Assembly (NCBI GenBank): GCA_036874045.1
Contig: CM072340.1
Coordinates: 21,851,001-21,915,000, forward strand
Length of the DNA stretch: 64,000 nt
Source: Cymodocea nodosa
Lineage: Eukaryota > Streptophyta > Magnoliopsida > Alismatales > Cymodoceaceae
Reading direction: 5' to 3'
Made by a program: the position numbers and the translations under genes. Position 1 is the stretch's first letter. Every line of letters begins with the position of its first letter. The notes under the pieces were generated by a model. It had not been told where the DNA came from. It saw only the letters and a list, made by a program, of their open reading frames with translations, and did not search any database. Shown one piece after another: positions 8,441-64,000 of this stretch.

Positions 8441-8450
8441 CATCTCCCTA

Positions 8451-8458
8451 TAAATTTT
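8451..8458 (+). promoter_or_regulatory. TATA-like box before a GC-richer leader-like block
   Basis: TATAAATT follows a C-rich CACATCTCCC and precedes an abrupt change to GC-richer sequence at about 8480. That is the pattern of a plant core promoter, but no downstream protein can be assigned. Confidence 0.4.
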
Positions 8459-8479
8459 TTTTTTTCTTTCAAAGATCTC

Positions 8480-9021
8480 GCTGTAAATTCATTCCGTGCA
8501 ATAGACAAGAGAGGGAGACTGGGGAAGACCGCCACGAGGAGAGAGGGCCTATCATTGGAGACCATACCGGGTGAAGAGGACGATCGGAGAAAAGGAGGCT
8601 ACCAGAACGCGACCGATCTCTCCCTGATCATCGAGCTTCACTACTCACGGAGATAGCTCCCACCAACACGACTAGATCGAACAAGCTGTCACAGAGCTCC
8701 GGGCTCCTCTGCATCGCTCTCTTGTGTGGAACTCACCAGCGCCTACACACCGGCACGATTTCGCACCAACCTCAGCCTCCGCTAAACACCAGACCAATCT
8801 CGTACCGTGTTGATCGCACTTCGCTCTACTTCATACCCTTGAATCTACTAACCTTGAGCTCCTACACGTATCCAAAACCCCAAGCCACCAGGCAATCAGA
8901 GGAAGAATCTGGGAGGACGATCGTCGGAGCGTCGTTCTTGGAAGACTTTTTCTGGCGAGCTCTCTCTTTTATCTCACGAGTAGCCACTGGGAGTTCTTGA
9001 CGAGACATTCTTCATTCCGGT
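8480..9021 (+). other. Gene-like 5' leader block (unassigned), ending at a possible splice donor
   Basis: About 540 bases of GC-richer, purine- and CT-rich sequence, unlike the AT-rich DNA on both sides. An open frame of 92 codons (8722-9000) has no recognised domain and may be chance. The block ends near 9020 in CCG-GTCAGT followed by a long T run and AT-rich sequence, which looks like an exon end plus first intron. The last ~60 bases and the following ~1.7 kb recur inverted at 36.24-37.91 kb, while the upstream 480 bases do not. It could be the 5' end of a host gene broken by later rearrangement, or a captured promoter; the sequence does not decide. Confidence 0.4.
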
Positions 9022-19794: not shown

Positions 19795-20880
19795 CAGCCG
19801 ATTTGGTTTATATTTGTTTATTACATTTTTTTATTTACTTTGGTTTCGATTTGATCGAAACTCTTGTCGTTTTTTCTTTTTTAATTTTAGTTTTTTTGGT
19901 TTCGATCAAACCAAGGGTAAGTTACGGTTCGACCAGAGTTTTTGTTTTTGTTTTTTATGTTGATTTCGATCTTGGTTGAGCCGATGGTAGGTTCACTCCA
20001 ACCGTACCTTGTTTTACTTTTTTTAATTTATTTTATTTATATGGGTTTCAGTCGAACCATTATTGAGCTTCGGTTGGTCCGAAACATTATATTTTGTTTA
20101 TTTTTCTTTTGTTTCAGTATCGGTCGAACCAATGAATATTCGATTTGACCGAAATTTTATATATATTTCTCATATTTGCCTCAGCTTCGGTCGAATCGAT
20201 GTTGAATTCAGTTTAATCGAAATTTTATATATTATTATGTGATTATTATTATTAATTAATTTACTATCAATATCTTTTTTACTTTATTATTTATATATAT
20301 ATATATTTGTATTTATTTTATTTTTTATTATTCTTTTATTATTATCTTAAAGTCGGTTGAACCGATATGTTGATTCGGTTTTACCGAGACTTATGTATTA
20401 TTATATATATATATATATATATATTTTATTTTAACTTTGGTTGAATCGATACTGGGCTTCGGTCAGACCTCAGACCGAAGTTTATATGTTATTATATTAT
20501 TATTTTATTCCTTCATTTTGACCTTGGTGGAACCGATGTTGCACTCTGGTTTAACCGAGACTGATTCATATTTTTTTATTATAACTTCGGTTAAGCTGAT
20601 ACTGCCTTTCGGTCTGACCGAACTTTATACAATATTATATTATTATTTCTTTTTATTTATTTTGACCTCAGTCGGACGGGTAGTGCAGCTCGGTTTGACC
20701 GAAGCTTATATATTATTCTGTTATTATTTATTTTAATTTTAACTCCGGTTCGACCGAAGCCTTGTTGTTTATTATTTTTATTTCTCTTATTATTATTTCT
20801 TTAGGTCTTGGTCGAATCGAAGGGGGCTTTTCGGCTTCACCGAAACTTTATCTATATTTTATTATTTCATTTATTATTAT
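19795..20880 (+). repeat. Array of paired CGGT-N3-ACCG dyads, copy 1
   Basis: Units consist of one dyad, about 11 bases, a second dyad, then 30-60 bases of TTATTATTA-like DNA. A clear unit starts at about 20524: TGGTGGAACCG is centred at 20530 and TGGTTTAACCG at 20552, 22 nt apart. Further units lie at about 20350, 20445, 20588, 20670 and 20812; those before 20.2 kb are more decayed. The frame at 20437-20736 (VEP...GLTE repeated) is a by-product. Inverted copy at 35.12-35.99 kb, direct copy at 47.6-48.5 kb. Confidence 0.85.
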
Positions 20881-20889
20881 TATTTAAGT

Positions 20890-21450
20890 TATAATTTCAC
20901 TCTGAGTAGTTTTATTTATTTATACTTAAATATTCTTTTACACTCTATCCAAGTTATAATTTCACTTAAGTAATTTAATTCCTTTCTTTTAACTTAGATA
21001 TATTTTTATATTCTATCTAAGTTACAATTTCATATAATTCTTTTCTTTTCAACTTAGATATTTTATGTTTTATCTAAGTTGTAACAATTTTTTTAACTTA
21101 GATATCACTATATTATATCTAAGTCATAATTTCATTTCATTAGTTTAAACCTTTTCCTTTGAATTTAGATGTCTTTATATTTTATCTAAGTTGAAATCTC
21201 ATTTCATTAATTTAGTCTTTTTCTTTTAAGTTAGATATTTTTATATTTTATCTAAATTATAATTTTATTTAGTTCCTTTCTTTTAACTTAGATATATTTT
21301 TTACATTTTTATCTAAGTTATAATTTCATTTAGTTAATTATTTTCTTTTAACCTAGATATTATTACATTTTATATAAGTTATAATTTCATTTAAATTTTA
21401 GCTTAGATATTTCTATATCTAAGACACAATTTTCATTTAATGAAATTACT
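20890..21450 (+). repeat. Array of AACTTAGATA...TATCTAAGTT dyads, copy 1
   Basis: About nine units of 55-70 bp: AACTTAGATA, a 10-15 base A/T loop, TATCTAAGTT, then ATAATTTCATTTAxTTxATTT. Stems of up to 10 bp are perfect in the best units (about 21050-21085). Directly follows the CGGT array and is repeated with it at 34.83-35.11 kb (inverted) and 48.49-49.14 kb. Confidence 0.85.
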
Positions 21451-22640
21451 TTTCTATGAATTCCACTCGCTTGATTTAAACTTATATATTGAGTTTCAAA
21501 TTTGATTTTTTGTTATCATTTAAATTTCAAATATTTCCAACCATTTTTTTTGTTTCTTTTTATTTTATGAAAAAAGGGAGTCGAGCGGGAAAGTGGATCA
21601 CATGACCGTCGAAATCCCCAAATTATGTCAGCTCCGGCCATCTTTTTCGACCGTCGACACCGCCCTTAACCCGTTGTACCGCCGCGCATTACTTCGCAGC
21701 CTTCGCTCAACGATCAGGTACAGCAGTACTTCGTTCTTTCTTCTTCTTCTTTTTTGTTTTGTTCTTTCTTTCTTTTTGTTTCTGTTTCGCGACTCGTTCG
21801 TTCGCCTTTTTTTTTTTTTGTTTATTGTTGTCCGAAATAGCTGTCTTCTCCAGCAATGACGGGCTCGACCTTGCTCCTTTCGTCGGTTGGCGACGCTTCC
21901 ATTTTCTCTTTTATTCTTTGTTTTTTTTTGTTGCCATCGCCACCTGCGACTGTCACTCGTCGTCCAAATAAATAATTTCGTTCAGCTTTGTTCGATGCTG
22001 CCCGCCCCTGTTGAGCAGCTGCGACCGTTGATCATCTTTTTTTTCTTTTTGATGCGCCGCTTGCTTCAACCGCCGCCTGCGGAACATTTGCACCTGCCAA
22101 GCATTTTTTATTTTGGGTCGCAACCGCCGTTGCCTGCGGTCGCCGGCTATTCCCCTTTCATTTTGTTTTTTTTTTGCAGGCGTCATAATGATCTTCCGCC
22201 GGTTCACTGGCGGACGACGGAAGTTGTTTCCATCTTTTTTTTCTTTTTACCATACCGATCTTTCACTGGAAGTCGCTTCTATCATTTTTTTTCTTTTGCC
22301 GTACCGATTTTCCGCTGACGGCGAAAGTTGTTTACGGACGCGACACCGATCTTCCACTGGTCTTTGTCTTCATCAACATATATTTTTTTTTACAGGCACC
22401 GCCGCCTCTACTTCTCCCCCCCTTTTTTTTTCTTGTAGAAGTTATAACGGTCTTCTGTTGGTCCACCAGCAGACCACGGAGGCCGATTACAAACACAATG
22501 TTGCTCGTCTACCAGCGGACGGCGGAAGACGTTTTTCCTTCTTTTTATCGCAAGCGATCACCCCATTCCGTCAGACAGTCGTCGTACCTCTTCTGTTGAT
22601 AGGAGCTGCCAATACGAAAGGGACTCTAACAATCTAATCT
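21450..22640 (+). repeat. T-tract and GC-dyad stretch of unknown nature
   Basis: After 21.58 kb base composition changes sharply: GC-rich blocks (CCGTCGACACCGCCC, CTTCCGCCGG) alternate with runs of 8-13 T. From about 22.16 to 22.54 kb the GC blocks are loosely repeated every 55-75 bp and several are inverted repeats, best at 22193-22223 (CTTCCGCCGG ... CTGGCGGACGACGGAAG). Open frames of 60-174 codons (21593-22637, both strands) overlap each other and are rich in Phe, Leu and Arg; I do not regard them as genes. It could be the untranslated leader of a retroelement adjoining the gypsy fossil, or an independent array. Confidence 0.5.
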
Positions 22641-25270: not shown

Positions 25271-25395
25271 AAATAGGTCACGTGAGAACTCGTTGAGTTA
25301 TAGGTTTAAAGGTTAAAATAGGTCACGTGAGAACTCGTTGAGTTATAGGCTTAAAGGTTAAAATAGGTCACGTGAGAACTCGTTGAGTTAATGAA
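25271..25395 (+). repeat. 45-bp tandem triplication inside the long LTR
   Basis: GGTCACGTGAGAACTCGTTG recurs at 25276, 25321 and 25366, an exact 45-bp period. Each unit holds CACGTG (a G-box core) followed by CTCGTTGAGTTA. Diverged single copies of the second motif continue to about 26.45 kb and again at 27.5 and 33.6-34.1 kb. Confidence 0.9.
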
Positions 25396-28300: not shown

Positions 28301-31300
28301 AATATTGTGAATGTTTTATGTTTGTTTGATTCAGAAAATAGAAAATAGTTTTATTGTTTACTAAAATTGATTTGTTCCAGATACTTAAAGATTTTAATGG
28401 TTACTGTTTGAAATATCTGAATGTTAGTGTTGCTTAATGGTTGGCTGAATTCCTTTGTAAATAGTAGTATTTAACTAGAAAGAATAGGCTTATGGAGTTA
28501 ACTTAAGTCCATGAGGTTAGTCCGTTGAGTTGACCATAACTCCACAAACTAGGTTCGTTGTGTTAACTGTAACTCAACAGAGTGCTTAACTGAATACATA
28601 TAAACTCTAATATAAAAATTGAAAGAAATTACATATCATGTAGGAATTCACTTGTGGAATGAAGAAGAAATCACCATCGTTGATATGAATGAAGGAAATC
28701 CAATCGATCATTTAAGTAAAAACAATTACTACAGAAAGAAATATAAAAGAAGAGGAAAAAGACGAAGAAAGTGTGTGTAGAGATGGAGAACTACGCTAAC
28801 TACAAGAAGCGTCGAAAGTTCCTTGAAACTCTACACCACCACCAAAATCACCAACCATCGGAGGTCTATGAGGATACTTTCCTAATGTTGAGTTGATTTT
28901 AAGCCAAACATAGTGACTGACAACCACTATGAGGAGTGATTGCGTTGCGAGAAAGGAAGCCATTTTCATCAAGCACCGACTCATATCTTAGGAGATCGTA
29001 AAACTTCTAGCCTTGGTTTCAGGTTGATGCCAGTATGTTGAAGAGGAGATCATCTTACAATTCTTGATACGCGATTCTATGGGGATAGGAGGCAAGATTG
29101 TAAGTGATTAAGTTTTCAGTGGTGTAATCACGTTGCATGTAGTGACAAAAGTTTTTACTGTCGATAGAGATTTTTACATTTCACCTTTCGTTCATCTTCA
29201 GGAACATATCAAAACAAAAATACCAAAAACAACAAATTATCTATGTTTTTGTTGTGTGGAAAGATCAAACAAACGTGGAGCATCTAGGGGTGGCGTGGAG
29301 AAGAGATCAATGTGGATGAGAGGAATGCAAGTGGAGAATTCGGAAGAACAACAAATTTACGTGGTTCCCCAACACAGGTACATCCACGGGTGATCAATCT
29401 ATCGTGATTCCTTGCTGTATGATTACTGGTACAAAGAAGGGGGAAAACATATTAGGGAACTCATCTAAGGCACTAGAAGGAGACCTGTTCACTAGATAAG
29501 AAGTTGTGTTAACAGCCTCTGCCCAAAACTTCTTGCTCAAACCTACATGAGACAGCATACAACGTGCCTTTTCTAGGAGTGTTCTATTCAATCTTTTAGC
29601 CACTCCATTTTGTTGAGAGGTATACCTAACGGTGTTATGCTGTGTAATGCCTTCATCTTTACAAAAGTTATCAAATTCCTGAGAACAAAACTCAAGACCA
29701 TTATCAGTTCTAAGATATTTTACCTTTCTGTCTGTTTGGTTTTCTACCTGCTTCTTCCAATGCTTGAAGCAAAAAAAACTTCACTTTTGTGTGTTAAAAA
29801 GAAAACCTAGTTCATCCTTGAATGACAGTCAATGATTGAAAGAAAATATCTGGAACCTACAATAGAAGGCTGACGTGAAGGCCCCCAACAATCAACATGA
29901 ATATAATCAAGAACTCCCTTGGAGCTATGCTGACTGCGAGCAAATGACACTCTTTTCTGTTTGCCAAAAGCACAATGCTTGCACATGTCAATACAAGCAA
30001 CCTTGTGTCCATCAAACTTGCCCAGACTACTCAGTTTCTGCATTCCTTTCTGCCCCAAATGACACATCCTTGAGTGTCACATGACAGAAAAATCCTACTG
30101 ACCAGATATAGCTGATGTAGCTGCGCCAACAATTGAAGTGCCTTGCAAAATGTATAAGGGACTAGATTTGGTTCCCTTCATAACAACTAATGAGCCTTTT
30201 AGTATGTTGATCTTCCCCTCACCATCTATATATTTATAACCCTTAGCATCAAGGGCCATCAGTGAGATCAAACTTTTTCCAAGCTTTGGGACGTGCCAAA
30301 CGTCCTCCAGAATTCTAATTGTGCCATCATGCAGTTTAAATTTTATAGTGCCCACACCAACTCTAGAACACACATCGTCATTGGCCAAGGTCACTTGACC
30401 ACCCTCCACTTGCTCGTAGGTGTTAAAATACTCCCTAGTAGGAGTCATATGATGTGAAGCTCCTGAGTCCATAATCCACTGATCATTAGAATAGGCACTG
30501 CAACAAATTGTAAGAGAAAAGTCATCACCTAACGTAGAATTGGTTTCTGCTACAGCAACTTTTCCTTTGTTTATAAGCTTGGGACAATGTGATTTCCAAT
30601 GTCCTTTCTCCTTACAGTAATGACAAGTATCCCTAGAGTACTTGCCCTTTGACTTGCTTCTGCTTCTATTCTTCCCTCCACCTTATCTCTGGCTTCTTCC
30701 CCTGTTCTCTTGCTGCTAAGCTGAGAGGCCAACACCACTTGCCTCGTTTCTACCATGCACCATGTGCCTAAGCTCCCTTGAATGAAGGTTGGACCTCACT
30801 TCCTCCAGTGTAATTGAATCTCTTCCAACTACACAAGACTGAACAAAGTTTTCATAACTCAATGGGAGTGAACAAAGCAAGATAAGAGCTGCATCTTCAT
30901 CTTCTATGATTACTCCAATATTCTTGAGTTCCATCAGAATAACATTTAGTTGATCTAAATGATGCTTGAGAGGTACACCTTCTATCATCTTTAAAGAGAA
31001 CAGTCTTTGCTTTAACAACAATTTGTTTGTTAAAGACTTAATCATATACAATGACTCAAGTTTCTGCCAAATACCTAAAGAGGTAGATTCATCAACAACT
31101 TCTATTATAAATTCATCAGACAAACACAACAAGATGGTGGAGTGAGCTTTCTCCTCCTACAATTCAAACTCTAGCGAATTTCTATTCAGAGTAGTTTCCT
31201 TATTTAAAGGAGCCCAAATACCTTGTTGCTTTAGAAGTGCTTTCATCTTAATTTGCCATAAGCTGAAGCTATTCTTACCATCAAACTTTTCTATCTTCAA

Positions 31301-35114: not shown

Positions 35115-35990
35115 TAAAATAATAAACTATAGATAAAGTTTCGGTCGAGCCGAAATACCCCTCTAATTCGACCAATACCAAAAGAAATAATAATAATAAG
35201 AGACATAAAAATAATAAACAACAAGACTTCGGTCGATCCGGATCTCCAATTCAGCCCGACCGAAGTTAAAATAAAAATAAATAATAACAGAATAATATAT
35301 AAGCTTCGGTCAAACCGAACTGCAATACCGGTCCGACTGAGGTCAAAATAAATAAAAAGAAATAATAATATAATATTGTATAAAGTTCGGCCAAACCGAA
35401 ATGCAGTGTCAGCTCAACCGAAGTTATAATAAAAAAATATAAATAATAAGTCTCGGTTAAACCGGAGTGCAACATCGGTTCCACCAAGGTCAAAATAATA
35501 ATATAATAGCATATAAAAGTCGGTCTGATCGAATCCCATTATCGGTTCAACCAAAGTTGAAATAAAAAATATATATAAATAATAATAGATAAGTCTCGGT
35601 CAAACCGGATCAACATATCGGTTCGACCCAATTTAAGATAATAAAAAAAGAATAATATCAAAAATAAAATAAAATAAAATAAATATAAATACAAATATAT
35701 ATATATATATATATATATAATAAATTAAAAAATATAATGATAGTGAATAAATTAATAATAATAATAATTAGGAAAATATAATAATATATAAAATTTTGAT
35801 CAAACTATATGCAATGTCAATTTGATTAAGGCAAATATGAGAAATATATATAAAATTTTGAGCAAATTGAAAATTCATTGTTCCATCGAAACTGAAACAA
35901 AAGAAATATAAACAAAATATAATGTTTTGGTTTAAGTGTAGCTCAATGATGGTTCGACTAAAACCTGTATAAATAAAATAAATTAAAAAA
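35115..35990 (-). repeat. Paired CGGT-N3-ACCG dyad array, inverted copy 2
   Basis: Units at about 35130, 35228, 35306, 35390, 35455, 35522 and 35607, then increasingly decayed to 35990. At 35306 CGGTCAAACCG is centred at 35312 and CGGTCCGACTG at 35334, again 22 nt apart. It matches 47.63-48.48 kb inverted. Confidence 0.85.
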
Positions 35991-39429: not shown

Positions 39430-39442
39430 AAACCCTAAACCC
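39430..39442 (+). promoter_or_regulatory. Telo-box-like start of LINE A
   Basis: AAACCCTAAACCC, nearly two plant telomere units, forms the first 13 bases of the element. Telo-box sequences are known cis-elements in plant promoters. The D fragment 5' end at 55350 lacks it, so it may be particular to this copy. Confidence 0.5.
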
Positions 39443-39536
39443 ATTCTTCACCTCTACTTTCTCTCTCTAAGCAGAGCTTCTCTCTCTAGGTGATTTTTGT
39501 TAAGAGAGTTGGAGTTCTTTTTTTTCTTGAGTTTTC

Positions 39537-41203
39537 ATGGCAGATGATCTGCCACCGGCTCTAGCAACCCTAGTGCTTGGCAGATGATCCGCCACCGGCT
39601 CTGAGGTCTTAGGAGATCCCCCTCCTTTTGTCAACCCTAGTGCTTGGCAAAAGGACTCACCTCGTCCTTCTTTTGCAGCAACTATCCATGAGCATTTTGT
39701 TCCTCCATCATTTCCAGAGATTCCAGTGAGAGATCCTATCTCGGTGGAAGGCCAACTCAGAATATCTTTCTCCAATGAAGAAATCTCAAATCTGGCAGCT
39801 CCATTTCAACACACGCTGGTCGGGAGATTTGTAGGACAACGGCCTGATCTCCACTCCATTCTTGAAGGTACCAAGGCTACCCTTAACATCTCGGAAGGAG
39901 TTTTCCCAGCAACTTTGGATAACCGGTATGTTCTTTTACGCTTTCAAAGTCATAAACATTTTTTACAAGCTCTAGTTAAGGATAACTAGAGCATTAAAGG
40001 GAGAAGAATGTCTGTTTTTCGTTGGTCTCCTTCCTTCTCACCTGGAATGGAAGCAATTTGGGCTCCTATTTGGGTTCACTTACCTCATCTACGTGCACAT
40101 CTTCATGCTCCGGGAGCCATAAAGTCCATCGCCAAACTCCTTGTAAATACCTCTGTGCTCATAAAGATGTATGCAATTTCACGAGACCTAGGTTGGCAGC
40201 GATATGCGTTGAGATGGATCTGTCGAAGCCTCTCCCACGCTCAATCACCATCGATAATGGAGGAGAGATCATAGTTTAAAAAATCTTATATCCATTCGAG
40301 CCAAAATTCTATATTCATTGTTGTAAAATTGGGCACATAGCTCAATAATGTAAAAAGAAAGCTGCTTCTGACAATGTTGAGCCATCGATAAGTTAGAAAA
40401 ATACGGATGAAAATCACAATGCGTGGAAGGTAGTTTAACGCAAAAAATCCACGGAGATCATAACTTCGCAACCAGTCAACTTCGACAAAAACGTATTAAA
40501 TCAGACAACTGATATCCCTCTGACTGAGAAAGATTTGCCGCAAAACGTCCCTGAGACTCTCTCTCCAAGTCGGGCAGCTATAGTACCTGCAATTGCTCCA
40601 GAGCTGGCCAAACACGCAACCGCTATTTGCAATGCTACAACATCGGGGAAGGAGGTAGAAAATCAGAAGAATTTTATGTCAGACATGCAAACGTTGCAAG
40701 CGGTGATTACTGACAACACGCTATTTCAGCGGTTGCGCTGGACCCCTCTGACACACGAATAGGCGTCCAACGCAAAGCAGACCCTGGTTCAACCGAGCAC
40801 TTCCACAGTTAAACTGAGTCTCGAGTTGTCAAACAGTAAACAATTTCTGAAAAACCCACCTGACAACACGCTATCAGTTCAGTCGCACCGGATTCAAACC
40901 GGTAACCAAACACTCGTAGTAAATACAAATCAGGTACAACCAGACACTTCTACGGTTAAATCGAGACATGAATCTTTTCAAAATCTTACTTTACAGATTT
41001 TAAAAAAAAAATTAAAAAATAAATGTATAGAATCAAATTTGGACGAAGAAGATTCTTGTCCAGAGAAGATTATGTCAAATTCCACATACGAGGAAGCAGA
41101 AACTCCAAGACAAAAAATCAACACGAATCGGCTATCCAAAAGACAAAGTACTCGACTAAGATAGAAAAAATTACAGCTCATCCACGACTCAGAATCCTCG
41201 TAG
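39537..41203 (+). pseudogene. LINE A ORF1 (DUF4283 / zinc-knuckle RNA-binding protein), decayed
   Basis: The N-terminal block DPPPFVNPSAWQK...FAATIHEHFVPPSFPEIPVRDP matches fragment D. It is followed by a DUF4283-like domain (LVGRFVGQRPDLHSI, ISEGVFPATLDNRYVLLRF, MSVFRWSPSFSPGMEAIWAPIWVHLPHL) and, in the neighbouring frame, CVEMDLSKPLP and a CCHC knuckle remnant (CCKIGHIAQ-stop-C, first Cys replaced by Tyr). The C-terminal half is a low-complexity Ser/Thr/Asn/Gln hinge ending in a basic tail (RLSKRQSTRLR). Stops occur at codon 17, at 39987-39989 (a Trp position, TAG) and at 41162-41164; a frameshift lies near 40.19 kb. In plant L1 elements ORF1 packages the RNA with ORF2. ORF2 starts 50 bases on, in the usual bicistronic order. 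Confidence 0.85.
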
Positions 41204-41253
41204 AGTGTCAGTCTTACATCCTTGTAAGATTGAAGCGGCCTAGCATTGATAAT

Positions 41254-44200
41254 ATGGATATATTATTTTAGAATTGTCGAGGGTTGGTAAATAAATCAAC
41301 CCAAAATTTCGTTAAAAATCTTATAGAGAAACATAAGTTACAAACTATATTCATCTAGGAACACTTTATGTCTGAAGATGATGCCCGAAAATTTGTAGAT
41401 AATATAAATTGGAATCATCACTATGGAAATTCAAAGATATGTGCCTTTTGGTATGATAATCTGGATATACAACATTGGGAGTCACACACGCAAGCCATCA
41501 CCTACAAGGTTTCAAAATCGTCTTATCAAGATCTTTTAGTTTCGGTGGTTTATGCTTCATGCAATCAGACTATCTATAGAAATCTCTGGGATTATTTAAC
41601 GGATCTGAATACAAGAACTGCACATGGCCCGTGGATGATTGGGGGAGATTTCAATGTTACTAGACATACAGATGAAGTTCAGAATATTATTCACATACAT
41701 TAGTCAGCAAGACAGGAGTTTAATGATTTCATAAATCAAAACCAACTCATAAAGCCCGCTAATTTTGGAGATTCGTTTTCCTGGTGCAACAATAGAATTG
41801 GCAATAACAGAAAATTAGCAAGGTTAGACCGCATTTTGTTGAATAATTCTCTATTTGAACAATTCAAAGATGAGATTATTTATGGAGAACGGATTTGCTT
41901 AGATCATGCTTATATCAGGATACAAAACAAAAACATCAGAGGTTGGGGCCAAGATCTTTCAAATTTAAAAATTTCTGGTTAACTTATAAAGATATAAATC
42001 ATATTGTCAGAAATGTTTGGAGCAGCGCAAAATTCCAGAATCCAATCACAAACTTCAGTGCTAAGCTCAAGATTCTAAAGAAAGCTCTCATTAGTTGGAA
42101 TAGAAATAAAGTGGGAAATATTTTTTCTGAGGAACAGAATATATTGAAACAAATTCATTCATTAGAGTAGAATTTTTAGAAAGAGCTTGAGACTTGCACG
42201 CTAGAGAAAAACTCTATGGTTATCAATCTCAAAGAAAAGCTTATAAAGAATACAGCTCGATAATCAAGTTTACTGAAACAAAGTTCTCACATTAATTGGT
42301 TGTCAGAAATGGACAGAAATACAAGATTCTTCCATCAACTTATCAAACGGAGAAACTCGAAGGATCATTTCAAAAGTTTGCATACAGGTAGTGAAGATGA
42401 AGATCAAATTAAAAAGAGAGGTAAAGACTACTTTTCAGAATTATTACATTCTCAACAAGTTACTGAGGATCAGAGTCTGTTTGATAATATACCGAGAATT
42501 TTAAATGAAAGTCACAATAAGTGCTTATGGGAAATTCCTACTATTGCTGAAATAAAAGAAGTCTTAGCCTCTCTCCCTAATAATAAAACACCCAGGCCAG
42601 ATGGTTTTACAGCAGAATTTTATATGAAATTCTGGGAGGTAATTGGTACAAATTTATGTGCTGCTTTATAGTACTTTTTCACAGGTGCAAGACTTAACAA
42701 TAAATGGAAAGCCACATTTATTGCTTTGATTCCCAAAAGAAAGCAACCAGGAAATTTTGCAAATTTTAGGCCTATCAGCTTATGTAATATCTCTTACAAG
42801 ATAATAGCCAAAATTATTGCCAACAGAATCTCCAAAGTGATTACACTTTTGATATCTCCCACTCAAGCAGCTTTCATCAAGGAGAGAAGTATTCATGATA
42901 ACATTTCCTTAGCACAAGAATTGATTCAATATATTGATCAAGGCCATCAGAGAGGTAATCTCATTGTCAAATTAGATATGGAAAAAGCTTTTGATAGAAT
43001 GAACTGGACATTTATTTTTCATACCCTTGAAGCTTTTGGTTGACTCCAAAATCATCAACATCATCTAAAACTGCATCTCTGACAACCCTACGTCAGTGCT
43101 ATTCAATGGAGCACCCTCACAATTTTTTTACCCTTCTAGAGGTCTTCGACAAGGGGATCCACTTTCACGTTTCCTCTTTATCATAACTGAAGAATTGCTG
43201 GGAAGAGCACTCCTCAAGCTCCAACAGGAATTAGATTATGTTCCTTATAAATGTCAAAGCAGACATTGGCGTATTTCTCACTTGCTCTTTGCAGATGATG
43301 CCCTTTTATTCCTAAATGGTAGGAAATCTATGCTTCAAAAAGTCATTGATATTCTCAAGAAATATGAAATGACTATAAGCCAAAAGATAAATTATGAAAA
43401 AAGTAACTTCTTTGTCTCAAAGAAAAGTCCAGCACATCGCATTGCATTCATAAAGGATACTCTTGGTTGCAAGCAAAGTGATTGGCCTTTCATTTACTTA
43501 GGTTGTCCTATCTTCAAAGGACAACCCAGGATAAAATATTTTCAATATCTGATTTACAAGATTCAAAATAAATGGCAGGCTGGAAGGCAAGATTTCTTAG
43601 TCAAGGAGGTAGACTAATGTTGATAAAGCATGTTCTGAATTCCATACATATACACACTCTAAGTGCCATTCCACTTCCATTGGGCATTATCAACAGAATC
43701 AATTCCATTTGTGCTAAATTTTTCTGGTCTGGAGACAATACCAAAAAGAATTTTCATTGACTTTCATGGAGAAAAATAGCTAGACCTATTATAGAGAATG
43801 GACTTGATATCAGAAATACGAGAGATTAGATTACCGCTTTCAGATTGAAGCAAATCAAAAAAATACTAGATAACTCAGGTATCTGGGCACAAGCCATAAA
43901 TGCTATCCACGGGTCGATGGATCAAATAGCAGAAGGACACAACAACAATATAAATAAAATGTTCAATAGCTGTTGGAGTAATTATAAACACTTATTTTAG
44001 GAATCTGGAACTTTATTCAGACATAAGTTCTCAATCAAAACTGCTTGGAACTTAGTGCGAGTTCACCACCATCAAGATAACAAGCTTCAAGGCATGTGGT
44101 CTACGCAGATTCCCACAAAAATTTCCGTTTTCCTGTGGAAATTAAATAGAAATATCATTCTAGTGGATGATATTCGAACTCAGGCTAGATATTATCTCCC

Positions 44201-44537
44201 TTCTATGTGCAGCTTCTACAGCAATTATTCAGAAACATCCCATCATATCTTTTACGATTGCAGGTTTGTCAAGGAGTTGGTAAATTGGCTCAACATTATC
44301 CTAAATATTGATGGGATTACCAACTGGAAAGAATGGAGCAGGCAAAAAAAATTTTCTCGAAAAAAATCCCCTCAATTGAATATTCTTAAATGTTTAATAG
44401 GAACTACATTATGGTGCATTTGGATCCATAGGTGTGATATTATTTTTCGCAACATTCAACCAAACATTTCTGCGGTAATCTGGAGGATATCTCATTTTAT
44501 TCAACTTTTTAAAGTATCGGAAGAAATTAGCAGATAG
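41254..44537 (+). pseudogene. LINE A ORF2 (endonuclease, reverse transcriptase, zf-RVT), decayed
   Basis: Starts MDILF with a stop replacing Trp in F-W-N-C-R-G. The AP-type endonuclease (41.25-41.96 kb) keeps EHFM, GGDFNV and LDH. Reverse transcriptase (about 42.55-43.6 kb) keeps FRPISLCNISYK, KLDMEKAFDRMNW (motif A), GLRQGDPLS (motif B) and LLFADDALLFLNG (motif C), so the catalytic aspartates are present. The C-terminal zf-RVT-like domain (about 44.08-44.3 kb, IPTKISVFLWKLN, SETSHHIFYDC) follows. There are about ten or more stops and several frame changes, for example after 41.70, 42.17, 42.67 and 43.04 kb. Many stops are TAG or TAA where LINE B or C has Gln or Trp, as expected from C-to-T changes at methylated sites. 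Confidence 0.9.
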
Positions 44538-44699
44538 CAGTTCACAGTTCTCGAAGATGAAAAATCAAAAATCGAGGAATACGACTCCACCGTGCCCGAG
44601 CAAGTCAGCAGTCCTCAAGTTTGATAGACGCATGTCAGACGCTAGCCATACAGCGGCCCCTCCGGCAGATGCACCTGACACATGTTAGAAGTTCCGGAC

Positions 44700-45110
44700 G
44701 AACAGATTTTTGCTAAAGACTAAACCGATTTTCCTAACCGGTCAAACCGATCCCAGGATCAGTTACACCGTCAATCCCAGAAAGTTGTGTTCCTCCGATC
44801 TAACCGGAATGTATTCGGTTAAACCGAAGTCTCTTCGGTCCAACCGATCTACAAGTACGGTTGTATTGAAAACAACCTTATACAATTCTTCTCGGTTAAA
44901 CCGCTATCCGACGGTTCAACTAGAGCTAGTTTGACCGGTCAGGGTCTTCGGTCAGACCGTTTCCTTTTTTCGGTCTTACCAATATTTAGGTTCGGTTTCA
45001 CCGAAAAGTCAACAACCTCTTCATTATCAGTTAGACCGTTTTGTATATCTGGCTAGACTGATTTTTTTATCGGTCAAACCGAAATAACTCTCGGTCAAAC
45101 CGATTTTCGA
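44700..45110 (+). repeat. CGGT-N3-ACCG cluster in the LINE A 3' UTR
   Basis: About 14 full or near matches in 410 bases, for example CGGTTAAACCG (44816), CGGTCCAACCG (44836), CGGTCAAACCG (45071 and 45092). Neighbouring centres are sometimes 20-21 nt apart but spacing is less regular than in the arrays. Confidence 0.9.
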
Positions 45111-45157
45111 GGCTTTTGCTTTTTGCATCTTTTGAGATTTGTATCTTTTATTTCAAA

Positions 45158-45178
45158 CCAAATTTTATTTGGTTTCTC
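45158..45178 (+). other. Terminal hairpin of LINE A RNA
   Basis: AAACCAAAT-TTT-ATTTGGTTT is a perfect 9-bp stem with a 3-base loop about 60 bases before the tail. LINE B keeps nearly the same hairpin and LINE C has a different sequence (ACTCAA...TTGAGT) in the equivalent place. Confidence 0.65.
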
Positions 45179-45228
45179 TCTCCCTTTTGCAGGACTATCC
45201 CCTGATGAATATTACAGGATAGATCTTT

Positions 45229-45253
<25 letters not shown>

Positions 45254-47589: not shown

Positions 47590-48385
47590 ATTTGGATCCT
47601 TGTTTTACTTTTTTAATTTATTTTATTTATACAGGTTTTAGTCGAACCATTATTGAGCTTTGGTTAAACCAAAACATTATATTTTGTTTATATTTCTTTT
47701 GTTTTAGTTTTAGTCAAATAATGAATTTTCGATTTGATCAAAATTTTATATATATTTCTCATTTACCTCAATTGAATTGATGTTGCATATAGTTTGATCA
47801 AAATTTTATATATTATTGTGATTATTATTATTATATTTTCCTTATTATTATTATTAATTTATTCACTATCATTATATTTTTTAATTTATTATTTATATAT
47901 ATATATTTTTGTATTTATTTTTATTTTATATTTTATATTATTCTTTTATTATTATCTTATATTCGGTCGAACCGATATGTTGATCCGGTTTGACCGAGAC
48001 TTATGTATTATTGTTTATATATATATTCTTTATTTCAACTTTGGTTGAACCGATAATGGGCTTCGGTCAGACCGACTTTTATATGCTATTATATTATTAT
48101 TTTGATCTTGGTCGAACCGATATTGCACTCCGGTTTAACCGAGACTTATTGTTTATATTTTTTTATTATAACTTCATTTGAGCTGACACTGCATTTCGGT
48201 CCGACCGAACTTTATACAATATTATATTTCTATTTATTTTGACCTCAGTCTGACTGGTATTGCAGTTCGGTTTGACCGAAGATTATATATTATTCTATTA
48301 TTATTTATTTTTATTTTAACTTCGGTCGGGCTGAATTGGAGATCCGGTTCGACCGAAGCCTTGTTGTTTATTATTTTTATGTCTC

Positions 48386-48417
<32 letters not shown>

Positions 48418-48480
48418 TCTTTTGGTCTTGGTCGAATCGGAAGGGTCTTTCGGCTCGACGGAAACTTTATCTATAGTTTA
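47590..48480 (+). repeat. Paired CGGT-N3-ACCG dyad array, copy 3 (best preserved)
   Basis: Dyad pairs with centres at 47969/47991, 48047/48069, 48114/48136 and 48328/48350, all 22 nt apart. Unit starts step by 65-78 nt (47962, 48041, 48108, 48173, 48245, 48320, 48428), with longer steps where (TTA)n has expanded. Units before 47.8 kb are decayed. Between pairs the DNA is almost pure A/T. Confidence 0.9.
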
Positions 48481-48484
48481 TTAT

Positions 48485-49145
48485 TTTATTTATTATTATT
48501 TAAGTTATAATTTTATTTTGAGAAATTTTATTTATTTATTTATTTATAGTTAGATATTCTTTTACACTCTATCCAGGTCATAATTTCACTTAAGTAATTT
48601 AATTCCTTTCTTTTAACTTAGTTATATTTTTATATCCTAAGTTACAATTTCATATAATTATTTTCTTTTCAACTTAGATATTTTATGTTTTATATAAGTT
48701 GTCACAAATTTTTTTAACTTAGATATCATTATATTATATTTAAGTCATAATTTCATTTCATTAGTTTAAATTTTTTCCTTTAAACTTAGATAAGTTTATA
48801 TTTTATCTAAGTTGAAATCTCATTTCATTAATTTAGTCTTTTTCTTTTAAGTTAGATATTTTTATATTTTATCTAAATTATAATTTTATTTAGTTCCTTT
48901 CTTTTAAGTTAGATATATTTTTTACATTATTATCTAAGTTATAATTTCATTTAGTTAATTTAACTTTTCCTTTTAACTTAGATATTCTTATATTTTATTT
49001 AAGTTATAATTTCATTTAGTTAATTTAATTATTTTCTTTTAATTTAGATATTTTTACATTTTATCTAAGTTATAATTTCATTTAAATTTTAGCTTAGATA
49101 TTTCTATATCTAAGACACAATTTTCATTTAATCAAATTACTTTTC
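48485..49145 (+). repeat. AACTTAGATA...TATCTAAGTT dyad array, copy 3
   Basis: About ten units of 55-75 bp in the same order as 20.89-21.45 kb, including one or two extra units (about 48.96-49.08 kb). Ends at GAATTCCACTCGGTTGATTTAAA, as in copy 1. Confidence 0.85.
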
Positions 49146-49149
49146 TATG

Positions 49150-50115
49150 AATTCCACTCGGTTGATTTAAAAGTTAAGGTCGATGGTCAAAAATTTTAAA
49201 AGAAATGAAATGGACTTTAAGATAAACAAACTAAAAATATCTTAACTAAGATATAAAAGTCAAAGTCAAAATTTAAAATAACATAAGGTTCAATTTACCC
49301 AAGGTTGAAAAATAACATAATCAACTTATATAATAAGATCGACAAATAAACTTAAAATAAAAATACAATGCTTTACCGTAGTCAGTTAGTAACACTAAAA
49401 TGTCATAGTTGAAAAAAGCAAGCGAGTTAATTGACAAAAGTTTGAAAACGGTGAATGCAAATCACAAGTTCAACTAATATAAATAGTCTATGGTTAAAGT
49501 TATTGAGATAAATGAAACTGACTTTAAGATAAAGAATAAAACAAGAATATCTTAGATTACTCTACTAAAATTGAAAGTCAGATGTTTTAATCAAAGTAAC
49601 ACAATAAACAAATGACTTAGGGTTGGGAAAACTCATATAAGAGTTAAGTTCTAAAATAAGTCTAACAATCAGATTTAACAAAGAATATAGTGATTTACTG
49701 TATTTAATTAATAAATCACAAAAATCATATGTGATTGTTGCAAGTAAGTTATGTATTAGGGATCTAAAAAGTTGAGAAGACACATAGTAGGTTCAACTAC
49801 AAAAGTTCAGCAATCAAAAATTTTAAGAGAAATGAAATAGACTTTAAAATGAAAAAACTAAGAATATTTCAAGTTATTAAATGAAATTTATAAGGAGTAA
49901 AAGTCAATGTCAAAATTTAATGTAACACAAGGTCAAAATTACCTAAGGTTGAAAAAAAATATAATCAACTTATAAACTAAGGTCGACAATCTTAACTAAG
50001 AATGTAGTGATTTATTGTAGTCAAATGTCATAGTTGAAGGAAGCAAGTGACACAGTTGCAAAGAGCCTAAATTAGAGCAAGCATATCAAAGGTTTAAACT
50101 ACAATAAATAAGTTT
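49150..50115 (-). repeat. Inverted relatives of the ~425-bp tandem repeat
   Basis: AAGAGAAATGAAATGGACTTT-like landmarks at about 49200, 49510 and 49830 (spacing 310-320) with TCAAAATTTAATGTAACACAAGG. They match the 13.1-14.5 kb array on the other strand. Shorter spacing suggests internal deletions or a shorter variant unit. Confidence 0.75.
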
Positions 50116-55350: not shown

Positions 55351-55998
55351 TTTTTTATAAAGATCTATCCTGTAATATTCATCAGGGGATAGTCCTGCAA
55401 AGGGATAGAGAAACCAAATAAAATTTGGTTCGAAAGAAAAGATACAAATCTCAAAAGATGCAAAAAAGCTAAGGCCTCGAAGATCGGTTTGATTGAGGGA
55501 AGTCCGGTTTGACTGATAAAAATCGGTCTAGCCAGATGATCAAAAATGGTCTAACCGATAAATGAGGGGGCTGATGACTTTTCGGTGAAACCGAGTATGA
55601 AAATCGGTAAAACCAAGAAAAGGAAACAGTTTGACCGAAGAACCTGATCGGTGAGACCAGCTCTAGTTGAACCGTCAGATAGCGGTTTAAACCGAGAAAA
55701 TTGTGTTCGGTACAACTGTACCTAAGGATCGGTTGAACCGAAAATCCTTTGGTTTAACCGAGAACTTTCTGGTTAGACCGGAAGATTCGAGTTTATGGGA
55801 TTGATGGTGTAACCGATCCTGGGATCAGTTTGACCAGAAAAATCAATCGAATATTTTGACAAGTGTCTGGAGCGTTTGCCAGAGGTACTGTTAGCATCTG
55901 ACATGTGTCTGTCAGACTTGAGGACTGTTGACTTGCTCGGGCACGGTGGAGCTGTATTCCTCGATTTTTAATTTATCATCTCCGAGAACTATGAACTG

Positions 55999-59312: not shown

Positions 59313-59889
59313 TCAAAAAAGGCATTACAAGACTCAAATTAAATTGAGTGAAATCAGATATAAATAATGTCAAAAAAAACTACTTTTCGGTTTAACCGAA
59401 AAATTTTCGGTCGACCGAAAACGGTTTAACCGTAAATATTTAACTGTGCGAGGAGAGATGAAATTGTCGGTGAGACCGAGCACTGTGACCGGTCCCACCG
59501 GAGACTTTCCGGTTTAACCGTGTACTGGGCGGTCCGACCGAGAAGCAGCAAGAGTCGGTAGTAACCGTGGAAAAACGGTTAGACCGAGAATTTAAAATAA
59601 ACCTAGAAATCGGTGAGACCGTGTCTGTTTTCTGGTGCGACTGGTGCAGCTCTGGTTTAACCGTTGAAAGAACGGTCATACCGGAACATGGATTATCCAA
59701 TCGAGAAAGCGGTTTCGGTGTGAACAGAGACTTGTCAGCGACCGATACCTGTTGCTTGCGGCGAGCGATTTCGATGTGAACAGAGACTTTAGAAAAGTTG
59801 TCAGAGCTATCGAAGCCTGTTGCTTGCGGCGAACAAATATTCCTCGTAAGTTGAGACTTGTCATCTGCAATTTTTTGAAATCTAAGTTC

Positions 59890-62800
59890 TCATTCTCGGA
59901 TATTGAAACCTTGGATATAATAAATAAGCTAGGATACGATAGAAGAAGAGTTAGGCTTTTTATTGCCAAATATTATCTCGCATTTGTGTTTCCATAAGCT
60001 CCATAGAGTAAATGCCGATAGATATTTATAAAATTGATTCCAGGAAGATTTTTTGCGTGAATGTAGTTGCTGCCAGCACCATATTTCCCAGTTGTGAATA
60101 GGATTTGCCGTAGTCAATAATCTGAGCCATTTGATGATATCTTGAGTAAAAGAGCATTTATAAAAAATATGGTTGATCGATTCTGTGGAGTTTCTGCAAA
60201 AACAACATATGGTCAATAAATGTTGTCCCAAATGTTTTCTTGTTTCATCTACCGGAAGAAATTTATTTTTGAGTTTCCAAAGGAAGATAGAGACTTTTGT
60301 AGGTATTTCGGGACTCCAAATACCCAATAGTTTGTTGTTACTGGGTAAATGATTTTTGATAGAATTCCATGCTGCTTTAACTGAGAATCTTGGGATCTGC
60401 AGAGTTTGATAATGTCTATACCACGTTTTGCCCAATGTTTTTCCTATGTTGCTGTCTCTATGGATATTATAAATATGTTCCATACTGCCATAGATTGCCT
60501 TGATGGCTTCTGCCCAAATGCCTTTATTATTGCTCAGCTTGTGTATTTGCTTTAGTTGAAAAGCAACTAATTGCTCTTTTAAATTTCTGATATCGAGTCC
60601 ACCTTCTGGAATAGGGGTGGTGATTTTTTCCCATTTGAGCCAATGATAGTTTTTCTTATTACTATCTCCTGACCAGAAAAAATAAGCACAGATATTGTTG
60701 ATCTCCTGAATGATTCCACAAGGAAGGGGCAAAACTGATAAGGTGTGTATAGGAATAGAATTTAACACATGCTTGATAAGCATTAATCTTCCCCCTTGAC
60801 TAAGAAATTTAGCCTTCCAACCTGCTACTTTGTTTTAAATTTTGTCAATGAGATATTGGAAGTATTTAATACGAGATTGACCTTTGAAGATTGGACAGCC
60901 GAGGTAGATGAAAGGCCAGTTGCCTTGAGGACATCCAATCATAGTAGAGAAAATATTCTTCCTATGCTCCGGACTTTTTTTGGAGACATAGAAGTTACTC
61001 TTATTGTAGTTGATTTTTTGCCCCGTAGATGCTTCATAATGCTGCAAAATGGTTAGAGCTTTGTCTAACATTATTTTGCGTCCATTGAGAAAAAGAATGG
61101 CATCATCAGCAAAAAGCAAGTGAGATATTTTCCAATGTCTTCCTTGGCATTTATAAGGGACATAATTTTGCTCCATTTGCATTTTTAAGAGAGCCCTAGA
61201 TAATAATTCTTCAGTGATAATGAAGAGAAGAGGAGAAAGAGGGTCACCTTGTCGTAATCCTCGGGTTGGATAAAATACTTGAGAATTAGCTCCATTGAAA
61301 AGAACTGAGGTGGGATTCAACGATATACATCTTGATATTAGATCAATAATAGTAGTGTCAAATCCGAAGGCAGCAAGTGTGTCAAAAATAGCTGACCATT
61401 CCATTCTATCAAATGCTTTTTCTATATCGAGTTTAATCATAAGATTTCCCCCTCTATGGCCTTGGTCTATATATTGTATGAGCTCCTGAGTAAGAGATAT
61501 GTTGTCAAAAATACTTCTGCCTTTAATAAATGCTGCTTGAGTATTAGATATTATGTTGGGTATGATTTCCGAAATCCGATTAGCTAAGATTTTGGTAATA
61601 CATTTATAAGAGATGTTGCATAGACTAATAGGACGAAAGTCTGAAAACTCCTCTGGTTGTTTCTTCTTTGGAATTAATGTAATGAAAGTAGACTTCCATT
61701 TATCATTCAGAGAAGATCCTGAAAAGAAACTTTGAACTGCAAGACAAAAGTCATTACCAATAATATTCCAGAAGTGTTTGAAGAATTCTGCAGTGAAGCC
61801 ATCAGGACCTGGAGCTTTGTTATTGGGAAGATCAAATACAACTGTTCTGATCTCATTGATGTTGGGAATATCCCATAGTTTCCTGTTATCCTCCTGATTA
61901 AGAATAGTAGGAATATTACTGATCATACTATCCATCATATGTGTATGTTGGGATGTCAGTAAATTGCTGAAATAGTTTTTTCCTTTGATTTTGAGTTGAT
62001 CACAAGAAAGATTGGACATATCTGATCTAAGCATACTCCTGAAGCAGTCCTTCGTGCTTCTTCTTTTGATAATTTGATGAAAGTATTTTGTGTTTCGATC
62101 CATATCCTTCATCCAATCAATGTGTGTAGATTGTCTAAAAAATAGAGATTGCCGATAATTGTTTTTTCGCAGGTCTTCTTGATAATTATGAAGGCTGGAA
62201 AGTTTCTCCGAGGTGCTACCATTGAGTTGGAAGTCCTGTTCCAGAAAATTTATTTTTCTAATTATCTACTTTTCTTCTTCAAAGATATTGCCCACTTTAT
62301 CTACATTCCAAATCTTTAGTTTTTCTTTGAGCAACTTGAGTTTTGCACTGAAATTTGTAATAGGATTCTGATAGGTGAGACTATGCCATACCTCTTGAAT
62401 CATATTTGGTAGATCTTCATAAGTCAGCCACATATTTTTGAAGCGAAATGCGGTTGGCCCCCAAGAGATAGTGCTCGTATTCTGAAGGATAATATATGCA
62501 TGGTTCGAGTTTACTCGATTCCCATAAATTATATCTTCTGCTATATGTGTTGCCATCTGCGAAATTATTAAGATACGATCTAGTCTGGCATACCTTCTAT
62601 CAGATTCTGATCTGTTATTGCACCAAGATAATTGATTCCCATGATGAAAAGGTTTCGTGAGGAGATTGTTATGAATAAATTCATTGAAATCCTGCATAGC
62701 TGATTGTTGATTATACAAAATATTCTTGGTTTCTCCAATATGCCTGACCACATTGAAATCTCCCCCTAAAATCCAGCTTGCTTTATCTGCAATTGAATTA

Positions 62801-63153
62801 ATCTCTGATAATTGATTCCAGAGTTGACGTCTGGTATATTGGTTGCAAGAGGCATAAATAACCGAAATAAATAAATCTTTGTAAGTGGCATTTAATACTT
62901 TATAAGTACAAACTTGAGGATGCATATCTATAATCTGAAAAGTAAGATTATCCGACCAGAGAGTGCAGATTTTGGAATTGCCATAATGATAATTCCAATT
63001 AATATTATCAGCAAATTTTTGAGTACCTTCAGGCTTCATAAAATGTTCTAATATGCATATTGCCTCTAGTTTTTGAGATTTGATAAGATTTTTGAGATAT
63101 ATTTGGGTTGATCGATTGATCAGCCCACGGCAATTCCAAAATAATATATTCAT
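59890..63153 (-). pseudogene. LINE C ORF2, nearly open (three in-frame stops)
   Basis: A single frame of about 1087 codons. Endonuclease (residues about 1-230): FWNCRG, Glu36 in ILEHF, GGDFNV (Asp132, Asn134) and LDR (Asp192). The terminal S-D-H motif reads SNH (217 Asp to Asn), which would be expected to impair cleavage. Reverse transcriptase: FRPISLCNISYK, KLDIEKAFDRMEW (about residue 575), GLRQGDPLSPLLF and LLFADDAILFLNG (about residue 680). C-terminal zf-RVT-like: IPTKVSIFLWKLK, CFCRNSTESINHIFYKC. In-frame stops at 62266-62268 (TAG) and 60835-60837 (TAA) fall where LINE relatives or context suggest Gln, and one at 59929-59931 (TAG) where LINE A has Trp nearby. No frameshift was seen, so this is the youngest LINE in the window. 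Confidence 0.92.
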
Positions 63154-63179
63154 ATAAAATCAAGAAAGAGGAGAGAGAA

Positions 63180-64000
63180 TTATTGAGAATTGCTGCTGAT
63201 ACTGTGAGAAGATTCAGCATCATTAGAAATCCTGCTTTTTTTCTGTCTGAGCCGAATGCTTTGTCTCTTTGATCTGGTTATTCTAAAGTCTTGTTGTGAG
63301 ATAGTTTCTTCTGTGTCAGATTGATGGTTGCTTGAGGAAAGGGAGTCGTCTTCTGAGCTGGGTCCTTCTGACAAATGTTTCAACTTTTCTTGTAAAATTT
63401 CTAAGGAAATTTGATTTCGTAGAATGCCTGAATCTTTTTGATTTAATAAGATATGTTCTGTTAATGGATGCTTGTCTGGTAAGTGTTCCGCCGATAGCTG
63501 TTCATAAGGTTGCTCGAGTTCTGTGGAAGGAGTGACAGCTTTGTTTAATTTCCTGTTGCGTGTAACCAATCTCCATTCTAAGTCGGTCAAGGCCTGTAGC
63601 TGTACCGACGGTTCTGTTTCTCTTGACAGATTGATTTGAAAACTCGGTGAGGCCGGCGAACTTTCTCCTCTTTGTCGCGTAGTGTTTTCCGGTTCCACCG
63701 GGATTTTGTTAAAGATGCATATCGGTTCTTCGGTGGATAGGCTAACTGCTTTGTCAGACATAGCAAACTGTGCGTCCTTGAAGTTGACAGTTTTTTTTTT
63801 TTTTTTTTTTTTCTGTCCGATGGTGTGATTGTCAGGTATGCTTTTCGGTTCCACCGGAGGATTTGCGGTCTTACCGTTCTGGTCTGACACCGCAAACTGC
63901 TTTTCCTTCGGTTGAACTGGTGATCCTATCGGTTCAACCAGTGATTCTGTCAGTACAGCGTCGGAGATTGCAGCTTTTTCTTTCGGTTGTACCTTAGTAT
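63180..64000 (-). CDS. LINE C ORF1, C-terminal part (partial at window edge)
   Basis: Open for at least 270 codons to TAA at 63180. The part in view lies after the expected DUF4283 and zinc-knuckle regions (outside the window) and is a hydrophilic hinge: V-E/Q-P-K repeats (63.84-64.0 kb), a seven-Lys run from an A tract, then Ser/Glu/Gln-rich sequence and the basic tail RITRSKRQSIRLRQKKSR. The tail aligns with the ends of LINE A and B ORF1 (RLSKRQSTRLR). No stop in the visible part. ORF2 follows after 26 bases. Confidence 0.85.
   Translation of the reverse strand, partial: TKVQPKEKAAISDAVLTESLVEPIGSPVQPKEKQFAVSDQNGKTANPPVEPKSIPDNHTIGQKKKKKKKTVNFKDAQFAMSDKAVSLSTEEPICIFNKIPVEPENTTRQRGESSPASPSFQINLSRETEPSVQLQALTDLEWRLVTRNRKLNKAVTPSTELEQPYEQLSAEHLPDKHPLTEHILLNQKDSGILRNQISLEILQEKLKHLSEGPSSEDDSLSSSNHQSDTEETISQQDFRITRSKRQSIRLRQKKSRISNDAESSHSISSNSQ
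63791..63812. repeat. Long T tract (A tract on the coding strand) inside LINE C ORF1
   Basis: An uninterrupted run of about 21-22 T on the plus strand, coding for Lys codons on the minus strand. Such tracts are prone to length errors in replication, in sequencing and in reverse transcription, so the true length in the genome may differ. Confidence 0.8.

Follow-up and report, generated by a model that had tools for sequence, protein, structure and literature searches.

Sequence-specific anti-silencing of transposons is known from the VANC proteins, which act on VANDAL elements of Arabidopsis (PMC5735166, PMC10398659). The target arrays of VANC consist of a short, tandem-repeated motif in non-coding transposon DNA and turn over fast, and VANC6 motifs also occur in AT9TSD1, an element that is called unrelated to VANDAL and sets a precedent for sharing beyond one family (available text of PMC5735166). 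A second point of comparison is given by the siren-locus motifs of the REM/CLSY3-CLSY4 system, where host DNA-binding proteins recognize short motifs at fixed spacing (PMC12270911, PMC8752594, in the portions available). Here we describe an array of paired palindromes at positions 47964-48461 of a 64,000-nucleotide (nt) stretch of Cymodocea nodosa DNA (the window; C12:21851001-21915000). Its unit is the dyad CGGT-N3-ACCG (CGGTNNNACCG), which recurs 3' of the main open reading frame (ORF) in L1-type long interspersed nuclear elements (LINEs), a Ty3/gypsy family and PIF/Harbinger families. We read these dyads as candidate sites of a dimeric, probably host-encoded DNA-binding protein that the elements may exploit for activation or anti-silencing, a reading that, going by the sequence, we give about an even chance.

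Like the VANC targets, the dyads form a short motif repeated in non-coding transposon DNA, except for some that lie within the ORF1 frame of one LINE. Identity with the VANC motifs was rejected on the letters, which are YAGTATTAY and AGTTGTCC/AGTTGTAC there and CGGTNNNACCG here, and the words 'spacing' and 'palindrom' do not occur in the available text of the VANC paper (PMC5735166). The VANC binder is moreover encoded by the element, whereas the dyads are common to LINE, gypsy and Harbinger elements in which no gene in common was found. No VANC appeared in the Pfam scans of selected ORFs, and no search aimed at VANC was made. The REM/CLSY3 motifs were rejected as well, being direct repeats of TTTTGCTTAT and AAGCGGAT one base apart, while the dyads have other letters and are inverted; in the accessible parts of these accounts the motifs are also rare (86 motif-1 sites are named) and their effect is silencing (PMC12270911, PMC8752594). 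We would thus file the dyads with the putatively bound arrays in transposons, as a member of neither the VANC nor the REM/CLSY3 family. HDP1 and HDP2 are Harbinger-derived proteins of an anti-silencing complex. They were considered as binders, and no paper on a DNA motif of theirs was found in the partly accessible literature. Nor is CGGT-N3-ACCG given as a motif in any paper found, as far as the searchable text goes, with six of the 64 exact 11-mers and degenerate spellings as queries; the matches to exact 11-mers concern other subjects, several of them papillomavirus E2. Titles and abstracts on motifs common to transposable-element superfamilies held nothing relevant.

The array under study belongs to a repeat family, here called family A, with three copies in the window:
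20354-20842, forward strand: family A copy 1; 5 exact dyads, 9 with at most one mismatch; pairs at 22 nt.
35142-35629, reverse strand: family A copy 2, inverted; 3 exact dyads, 11 with at most one mismatch; pairs at 22 nt.
47964-48461, forward strand: family A copy 3, the array under study; 7 exact dyads, 9 with at most one mismatch; 22-nt pairs.

The seven exact dyads of copy 3 lie within 47964-48355. An initial annotation of this DNA had listed six pairs with their centres 22 nt apart, and all six exist at exactly that distance with zero to two arm mismatches per dyad. Counted over the eight arm bases (first/second dyad), the mismatches are 0/0 at 47969/47991, 1/0 at 48047/48069, 1/0 at 48114/48136 and 2/0 at 48328/48350 in this array, 0/1 at 35312/35334 in the inverted copy and 1/1 at 20530/20552 in copy 1. 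The array holds further pairs at 48251/48273 (2/0), at 48180/48202 (4/0, the first dyad being lost) and, degenerate, at 48434/48456 (2/2). The period of about 70 bp was borne out by the first six units, whose second dyads follow one another at 66-78 bp. Both other copies proved real: the repeat copies of the array region span 20007-21393 (83% identical to copy 3) and, inverted, 36215-34829 (88%). When positions 47590-48540 were searched against the genome (374.6 Mb in 28 contigs), 53 matches were obtained from the best 40 of 138 candidates scored. Every one of the 23 longest array matches (at least 79% identity over at least 737 bases, including the window's own three) is found no more than 78 kb from a contig start or end; the 24th, of 560 bases, lies inside contig C9. 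Directly adjoining the dyad arrays, at 48525-49153 and 20870-21480, are AT-rich tandem repeats whose units, about 60-67 bp long, contain AACTTAGATA and TATCTAAGTT halves.

The dyad is fixed in both its letters and its spacer. The window contains 37 exact dyads against a mean of 0.05 and a maximum of 1 in 100 dinucleotide-preserving shuffles, and the genome contains 9631 against 1379 for the reversed-pattern control. A spacer of three bases accounts for all 37 window matches, while every other length from 0 to 11 gives 0-2. CGGT arms occur 37 times in the window and 142 times in 20 dyad-bearing loci, compared to 0-1 and 0-6 for the 23 other letter orders. The rough consensus is TCGGTYNRACCGA, in which the outer T/A and Y/R are preferred rather than fixed. 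Linkers between pairs are family-specific, and AT-rich in the family A, gypsy and Harbinger arrays.

Pair spacing is likewise confined to a narrow range. With at most one mismatch per dyad, centre distances in the window are 20 (n = 9), 21 (n = 3) and 22 (n = 16), and the next does not come before 34. Exact pairs in the genome number 12 at 11-18, 379 at 19, 218 at 20-21, 550 at 22 and 53 at 23-33; among the last, 31 of the 50 pairs listed lie at 23, which puts about 31-34 at 23 and about 19-22 at 24-33. A second group of some 216-231 pairs lies at 34-40 (250 at 24-40), and some pairs near 40 resemble 20 + 20 with a decayed middle dyad. Distances of 19-22 thus comprise 1147 of the 1428 exact pairs at 11-40 nt, a count made per copy and dominated by large families (those listed among the 379 pairs at 19 are one sequence family), and the reversed-pattern controls gave 0 to 6. 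Each family has its own distances (at most one mismatch per dyad): 20 (n = 22), 21 (n = 6), 22 (n = 18) and 19 (n = 1) in LINEs; 22 (n = 9) and 20 (n = 1) in family A; 22 (n = 16) in gypsy; 19 (n = 27) and 20 (n = 4) in the Harbinger family HarbX; and 23 (n = 7) in the Harbinger family HarbY. For gypsy, three of nine loci (L021-L023) were drawn only from the list of exact pairs at 22, a bias from which the protein-chosen loci L040-L042 described below are free. In 28 array regions picked by hand there are 118 pairs at 11-33 nt, and 111 of them fall at 19-23; outside these regions stand L001-L004 (L001 and L003 lie inside L006 and L007), the HarbX loci L014 and L016, a second L005 cluster (5149-5398) and a small one in L017 (9767-9906).

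Sites about a whole number of turns apart, with other distances avoided, are the arrangement looked for in a cooperative paired protein site, and this is the arrangement found. The 22-nt lock that the initial annotation proposed holds for family A and gypsy and is too strong in general, as the other families use 19, 20-22 or 23. The genome-wide spacing scan that it suggested did return a sharp profile with 550 pairs at 22, accompanied by the further 379 at 19 and 218 at 20-21. Its picture of cooperating dimers fits pairs about two turns apart, but placing them on the same helix face overstates what the family-specific spacings allow. Simple recent duplication, which it had named as a competing explanation, fails as the whole story: families without alignable arrays have the same dyad at nearly the same spacing. 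The satellite frame does not extend beyond this array, the arrays elsewhere being LINE, gypsy and Harbinger modules, and a simple tandem satellite was rejected, as dyad and spacing persist across differing linkers and unit lengths and as arrays elsewhere sit inside elements.

Copies chosen by their protein alone carry the dyads too. Six segments of about 1 kb at the array position, set beforehand as a test, were taken from copies found by protein searches that scored the best candidates only (131 of 1343, 150 of 3560 and 150 of 8671), and dyads were ignored in the choice. All six contain 3-15 dyads (at most one mismatch) and 1-6 pairs at 19-22, at the expected position. The gypsy loci have 5 dyads with 2 pairs at 22 (L040), 3 with 1 (L041) and 7 with 3 (L042), the HarbX locus L043 has 11 dyads and 5 pairs at 19, the Harbinger locus L044 has 6 dyads and 1 pair at 20, and the LINE locus L045, with only 51% protein identity, has 15 dyads and 6 pairs at 20-22. 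In 200 shuffles per locus, the mean was 0.04-0.13 dyads, and a pair at 18-23 arose in 1 of 1200.

The carriers were identified from 20 loci of 10 kb on contig C1, chosen around exact pairs, of which three are LINEs (L005, L011, L024), nine Ty3/gypsy and eight PIF/Harbinger. The gypsy assignment stands on Pfam domains for L022 (protease, reverse transcriptase, RNase H and integrase), on BLAST for its relatives and on the flank only for L008. For Harbinger, DDE_Tnp_4 is found in ORFs of L012 and L010 and a Myb/SANT-like domain in L010 and L017, and the others were assigned by BLAST. Four further loci comprise two HarbX copies, one Harbinger-like locus without a long ORF and one gypsy copy. Some 0.2-0.65 kb separate the 3' end of the domain-bearing ORF from the start of the main array, which extends up to about 1.3 kb. 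Three LINEs with dyads lie in the window itself:
41252-44537, forward strand: LINE1 ORF2 region (endonuclease, reverse transcriptase and zf-RVT), located by tblastn; frames broken; the element spans about 39431-45253 by self-alignment.
44739-45102, forward strand: LINE1 array in the 3' untranslated region (3'UTR); 8 exact dyads, 12 with at most one mismatch; runs of 20, 21 and 22.
55505-55815, reverse strand: LINE2 3'UTR array; 2 exact dyads, 11 with at most one mismatch; distances 20 and 22.
59388-59683, reverse strand: LINE3 3'UTR array; 9 exact dyads, 10 with at most one mismatch; distances 20 and 22.
59929-63159, reverse strand: LINE3 ORF2; endonuclease, reverse transcriptase and zf-RVT domains in three abutting frames.
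63645-63994, reverse strand: dyads of the LINE3 ORF1 tail, inside an open frame; 3 exact, 7 with at most one mismatch.

The ORF1 frame of LINE3 is open through the dyads in the window and in L024, and in L011 it ends just before them. Apart from a zinc knuckle in L009 and Myb_DNA-bind_3, the Myb/SANT-like domain of L010 and L017, Pfam scans of further gypsy and Harbinger ORFs gave no DNA-binding domain; matches to At2g29880_C in those ORFs were weak and below cut-off. No dyad cluster lies beside the copia pieces (window 30095-31156, L008, L018 and L021). Near copia pieces, CACGTG and CTCGTTRAGTTA-like words occur in a repeat family (window 25271-25390 and L005 2390-2900) that is a candidate regulatory array. 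Beside HarbX, sequence repeated in tandem about every 509 bp occupies L012 1-3902 and L013 1-3974 (contig C1, about 9.5-10.8 Mb).

Two cooperating protein dimers on DNA would fit the fixed letters, the fixed three-base spacer, the palindromy and the pairing at about two turns. A dimeric, sequence-specific protein would bind each TCGGTYNRACCGA-type dyad, and two such dimers would sit about two helical turns apart (18-23 bp), probably cooperating. The sites would act as cis-acting transposon modules, mostly 3' of the main ORF, and L1-type LINEs, one Ty3/gypsy family and PIF/Harbinger families would each have gained or kept them separately. A host-encoded binder is most likely, because no gene common to the carrier orders was found. 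Binding probably helps the element, by transcriptional activation or by anti-silencing like that of VANC on VANDAL, because selfish elements keep the sites, and silencer sites would be expected to disappear, not to be acquired. In a bolder version, which we would sooner doubt than assert, all three orders would depend on one host protein as their activator or anti-silencing gateway, each having independently evolved the same paired-palindrome arrays. The dyads would bear on how plant transposons escape silencing; a motif common to LINEs, long terminal repeat elements and DNA transposons in one genome points to one factor. If one factor were pulled down with a 33-bp probe, convergence of unrelated elements on one host protein would become directly testable.

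Several results weigh against this protein-site reading. The family modes of 18-23 span roughly half a helical turn, so that a strict face-to-face arrangement is not required. Half of the protein-chosen loci (L040, L041 and L044) have no exact dyad. The family A array is assigned to no host element; truncated LINE pieces adjoin it, with a reverse transcriptase piece ending at 47554. A tblastx comparison among 17 segments (E 1e-4) found no protein common to the three orders, but it is insensitive, with even the LINE and gypsy reverse transcriptases left unlinked. Recent copies, finally, show no general extra conservation of the arms. These are better kept than their surroundings in family A (231/240 versus 604/652 nearby) and LINE1/2 (71/79 versus 151/205), but no better or worse in HarbX (205/229 versus 459/487), HarbY (57/75 versus 186/203), LINE3 and one gypsy set. 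Selection is therefore argued from recurrence alone. CpGs, which were not used as support, are kept in dyads versus elsewhere at 56/60 versus 76/118 in family A, 10/19 versus 34/45 in HarbY, 25/30 versus 40/43 in the LINE3 3'UTR and 9/14 versus 41/53 in the LINE3 ORF1 tail.

Four other explanations of the recurrence have to be weighed. A single AT-rich dyad array may have spread by recombination or template switching without any function, the dyads being leftovers. When the array under study is aligned with one of HarbX, 147 of 204 columns agree, with dyads and AT runs making up most identities, and tandem duplication clearly adds array units. Yet BLAST (E 1e-8) found no link among the LINE, gypsy and Harbinger arrays, the dyads are kept although linkers and spacings vary by family, CpG-rich arms in silenced elements should decay fast unless renewed, and some dyads sit inside the open ORF1 frame; we therefore regard such a spread as unlikely. 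Quite improbable, and to the same degree, are two explanations that assign the dyads to RNA or to Harbinger. If CGGU-NNN-ACCG triloops in the 3' parts of transcripts bound an RNA-binding protein in export, 3'-end formation or recognition by the LINE reverse transcriptase, the main arrays would be well placed, since all three orders have them downstream of the main ORF; the one-mismatch dyads of gypsy agree, 14 keeping G-U pairing versus 6 breaking it. However, what is kept is the letters and not merely the pairing, for which reason the hairpin role raised in the initial annotation is not favoured. Other arms and loops other than three bases are nearly absent, as are the compensatory arms and loop drift that a hairpin predicts. 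Wobble tolerance, which a hairpin would likewise predict, differs between families: across five of them, 42 one-mismatch dyads keep G-U pairing, 67 break it and 13 are of another kind (LINE 12 kept versus 28 broken, HarbX 2 versus 22, HarbY 6 versus 5, family A 8 versus 6), although related and mostly dead copies make this a weak test. One carrier set, moreover, is a DNA transposon.

The sites might instead be owned by Harbinger, serving its own Myb/SANT-like protein or transposase, with LINE and gypsy having acquired or mimicked them. L010 and L017 do have both dyads and a Myb_DNA-bind_3 protein, and HarbX transposase has at least 150 matches. In L010, nevertheless, some 1.5-1.8 kb separate the dyads from the likely element end (3382), so that they are not at its tip; distances of 19 and 23 nt occur in two families whose transposases are related (about 63-78% in tblastx pieces); and there is no known reason for retroelements to keep such sites. 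Least probable in our judgement is that a host silencing or chromatin factor recognizes the dyads and the elements carry them despite the cost. Plants usually silence repeats such as the dyad carriers, which is in line with it. REM factors also bring Pol IV to short repeated motifs in Arabidopsis (PMC12270911, in the part available), but those motifs differ in letters and layout, and three orders keep or gain sites that selection on the elements should remove.

Apart from the dyads, the window is a chromosome end: its 64 kb close contig C12, with no base of the contig beyond them. Its array blocks are found again no farther than 78 kb from the ends of at least seven more contigs, so that subtelomeres have large duplicated blocks in common. 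Matches to the C-terminal part of LINE3 ORF2 occur there too: of the 132 scored, pieces of one copy being counted apart, 61 are no more than 110 kb away from a contig start or one of 13 known ends, and 57 of these 61 have their 5' end outward, head to tail, a layout also known from telomere-targeting LINEs of other organisms. A LINE 3' end followed by poly(A) and then (CCCTAAA)n is found in L024 (1624-1900, 7900-7945) and L039 (1001-1240, 2020-2118). L024 further contains five matches to 5S ribosomal RNA (Rfam RF00001; four above and one below gathering score), and poly(A) and 5S units lie between telomeric repeats at 783-1207, 1222-1623 and 7940-9304. This looks like telomere-inserted L1-type LINEs plus a 5S-derived short interspersed nuclear element. 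SART/TRAS-like LINEs are alike in that relatives of the window's LINEs lie in telomeric repeats at chromosome ends, whereas the available text on SART/TRAS mentions no dyad arrays (PMC10088271). Among titles and abstracts, no land-plant case of telomere-inserted LINEs was recognized. Inside the chromosome arm, the 5' end of LINE1 (window 39431-39460) starts with the telomere-like AAACCCTAAACCC.
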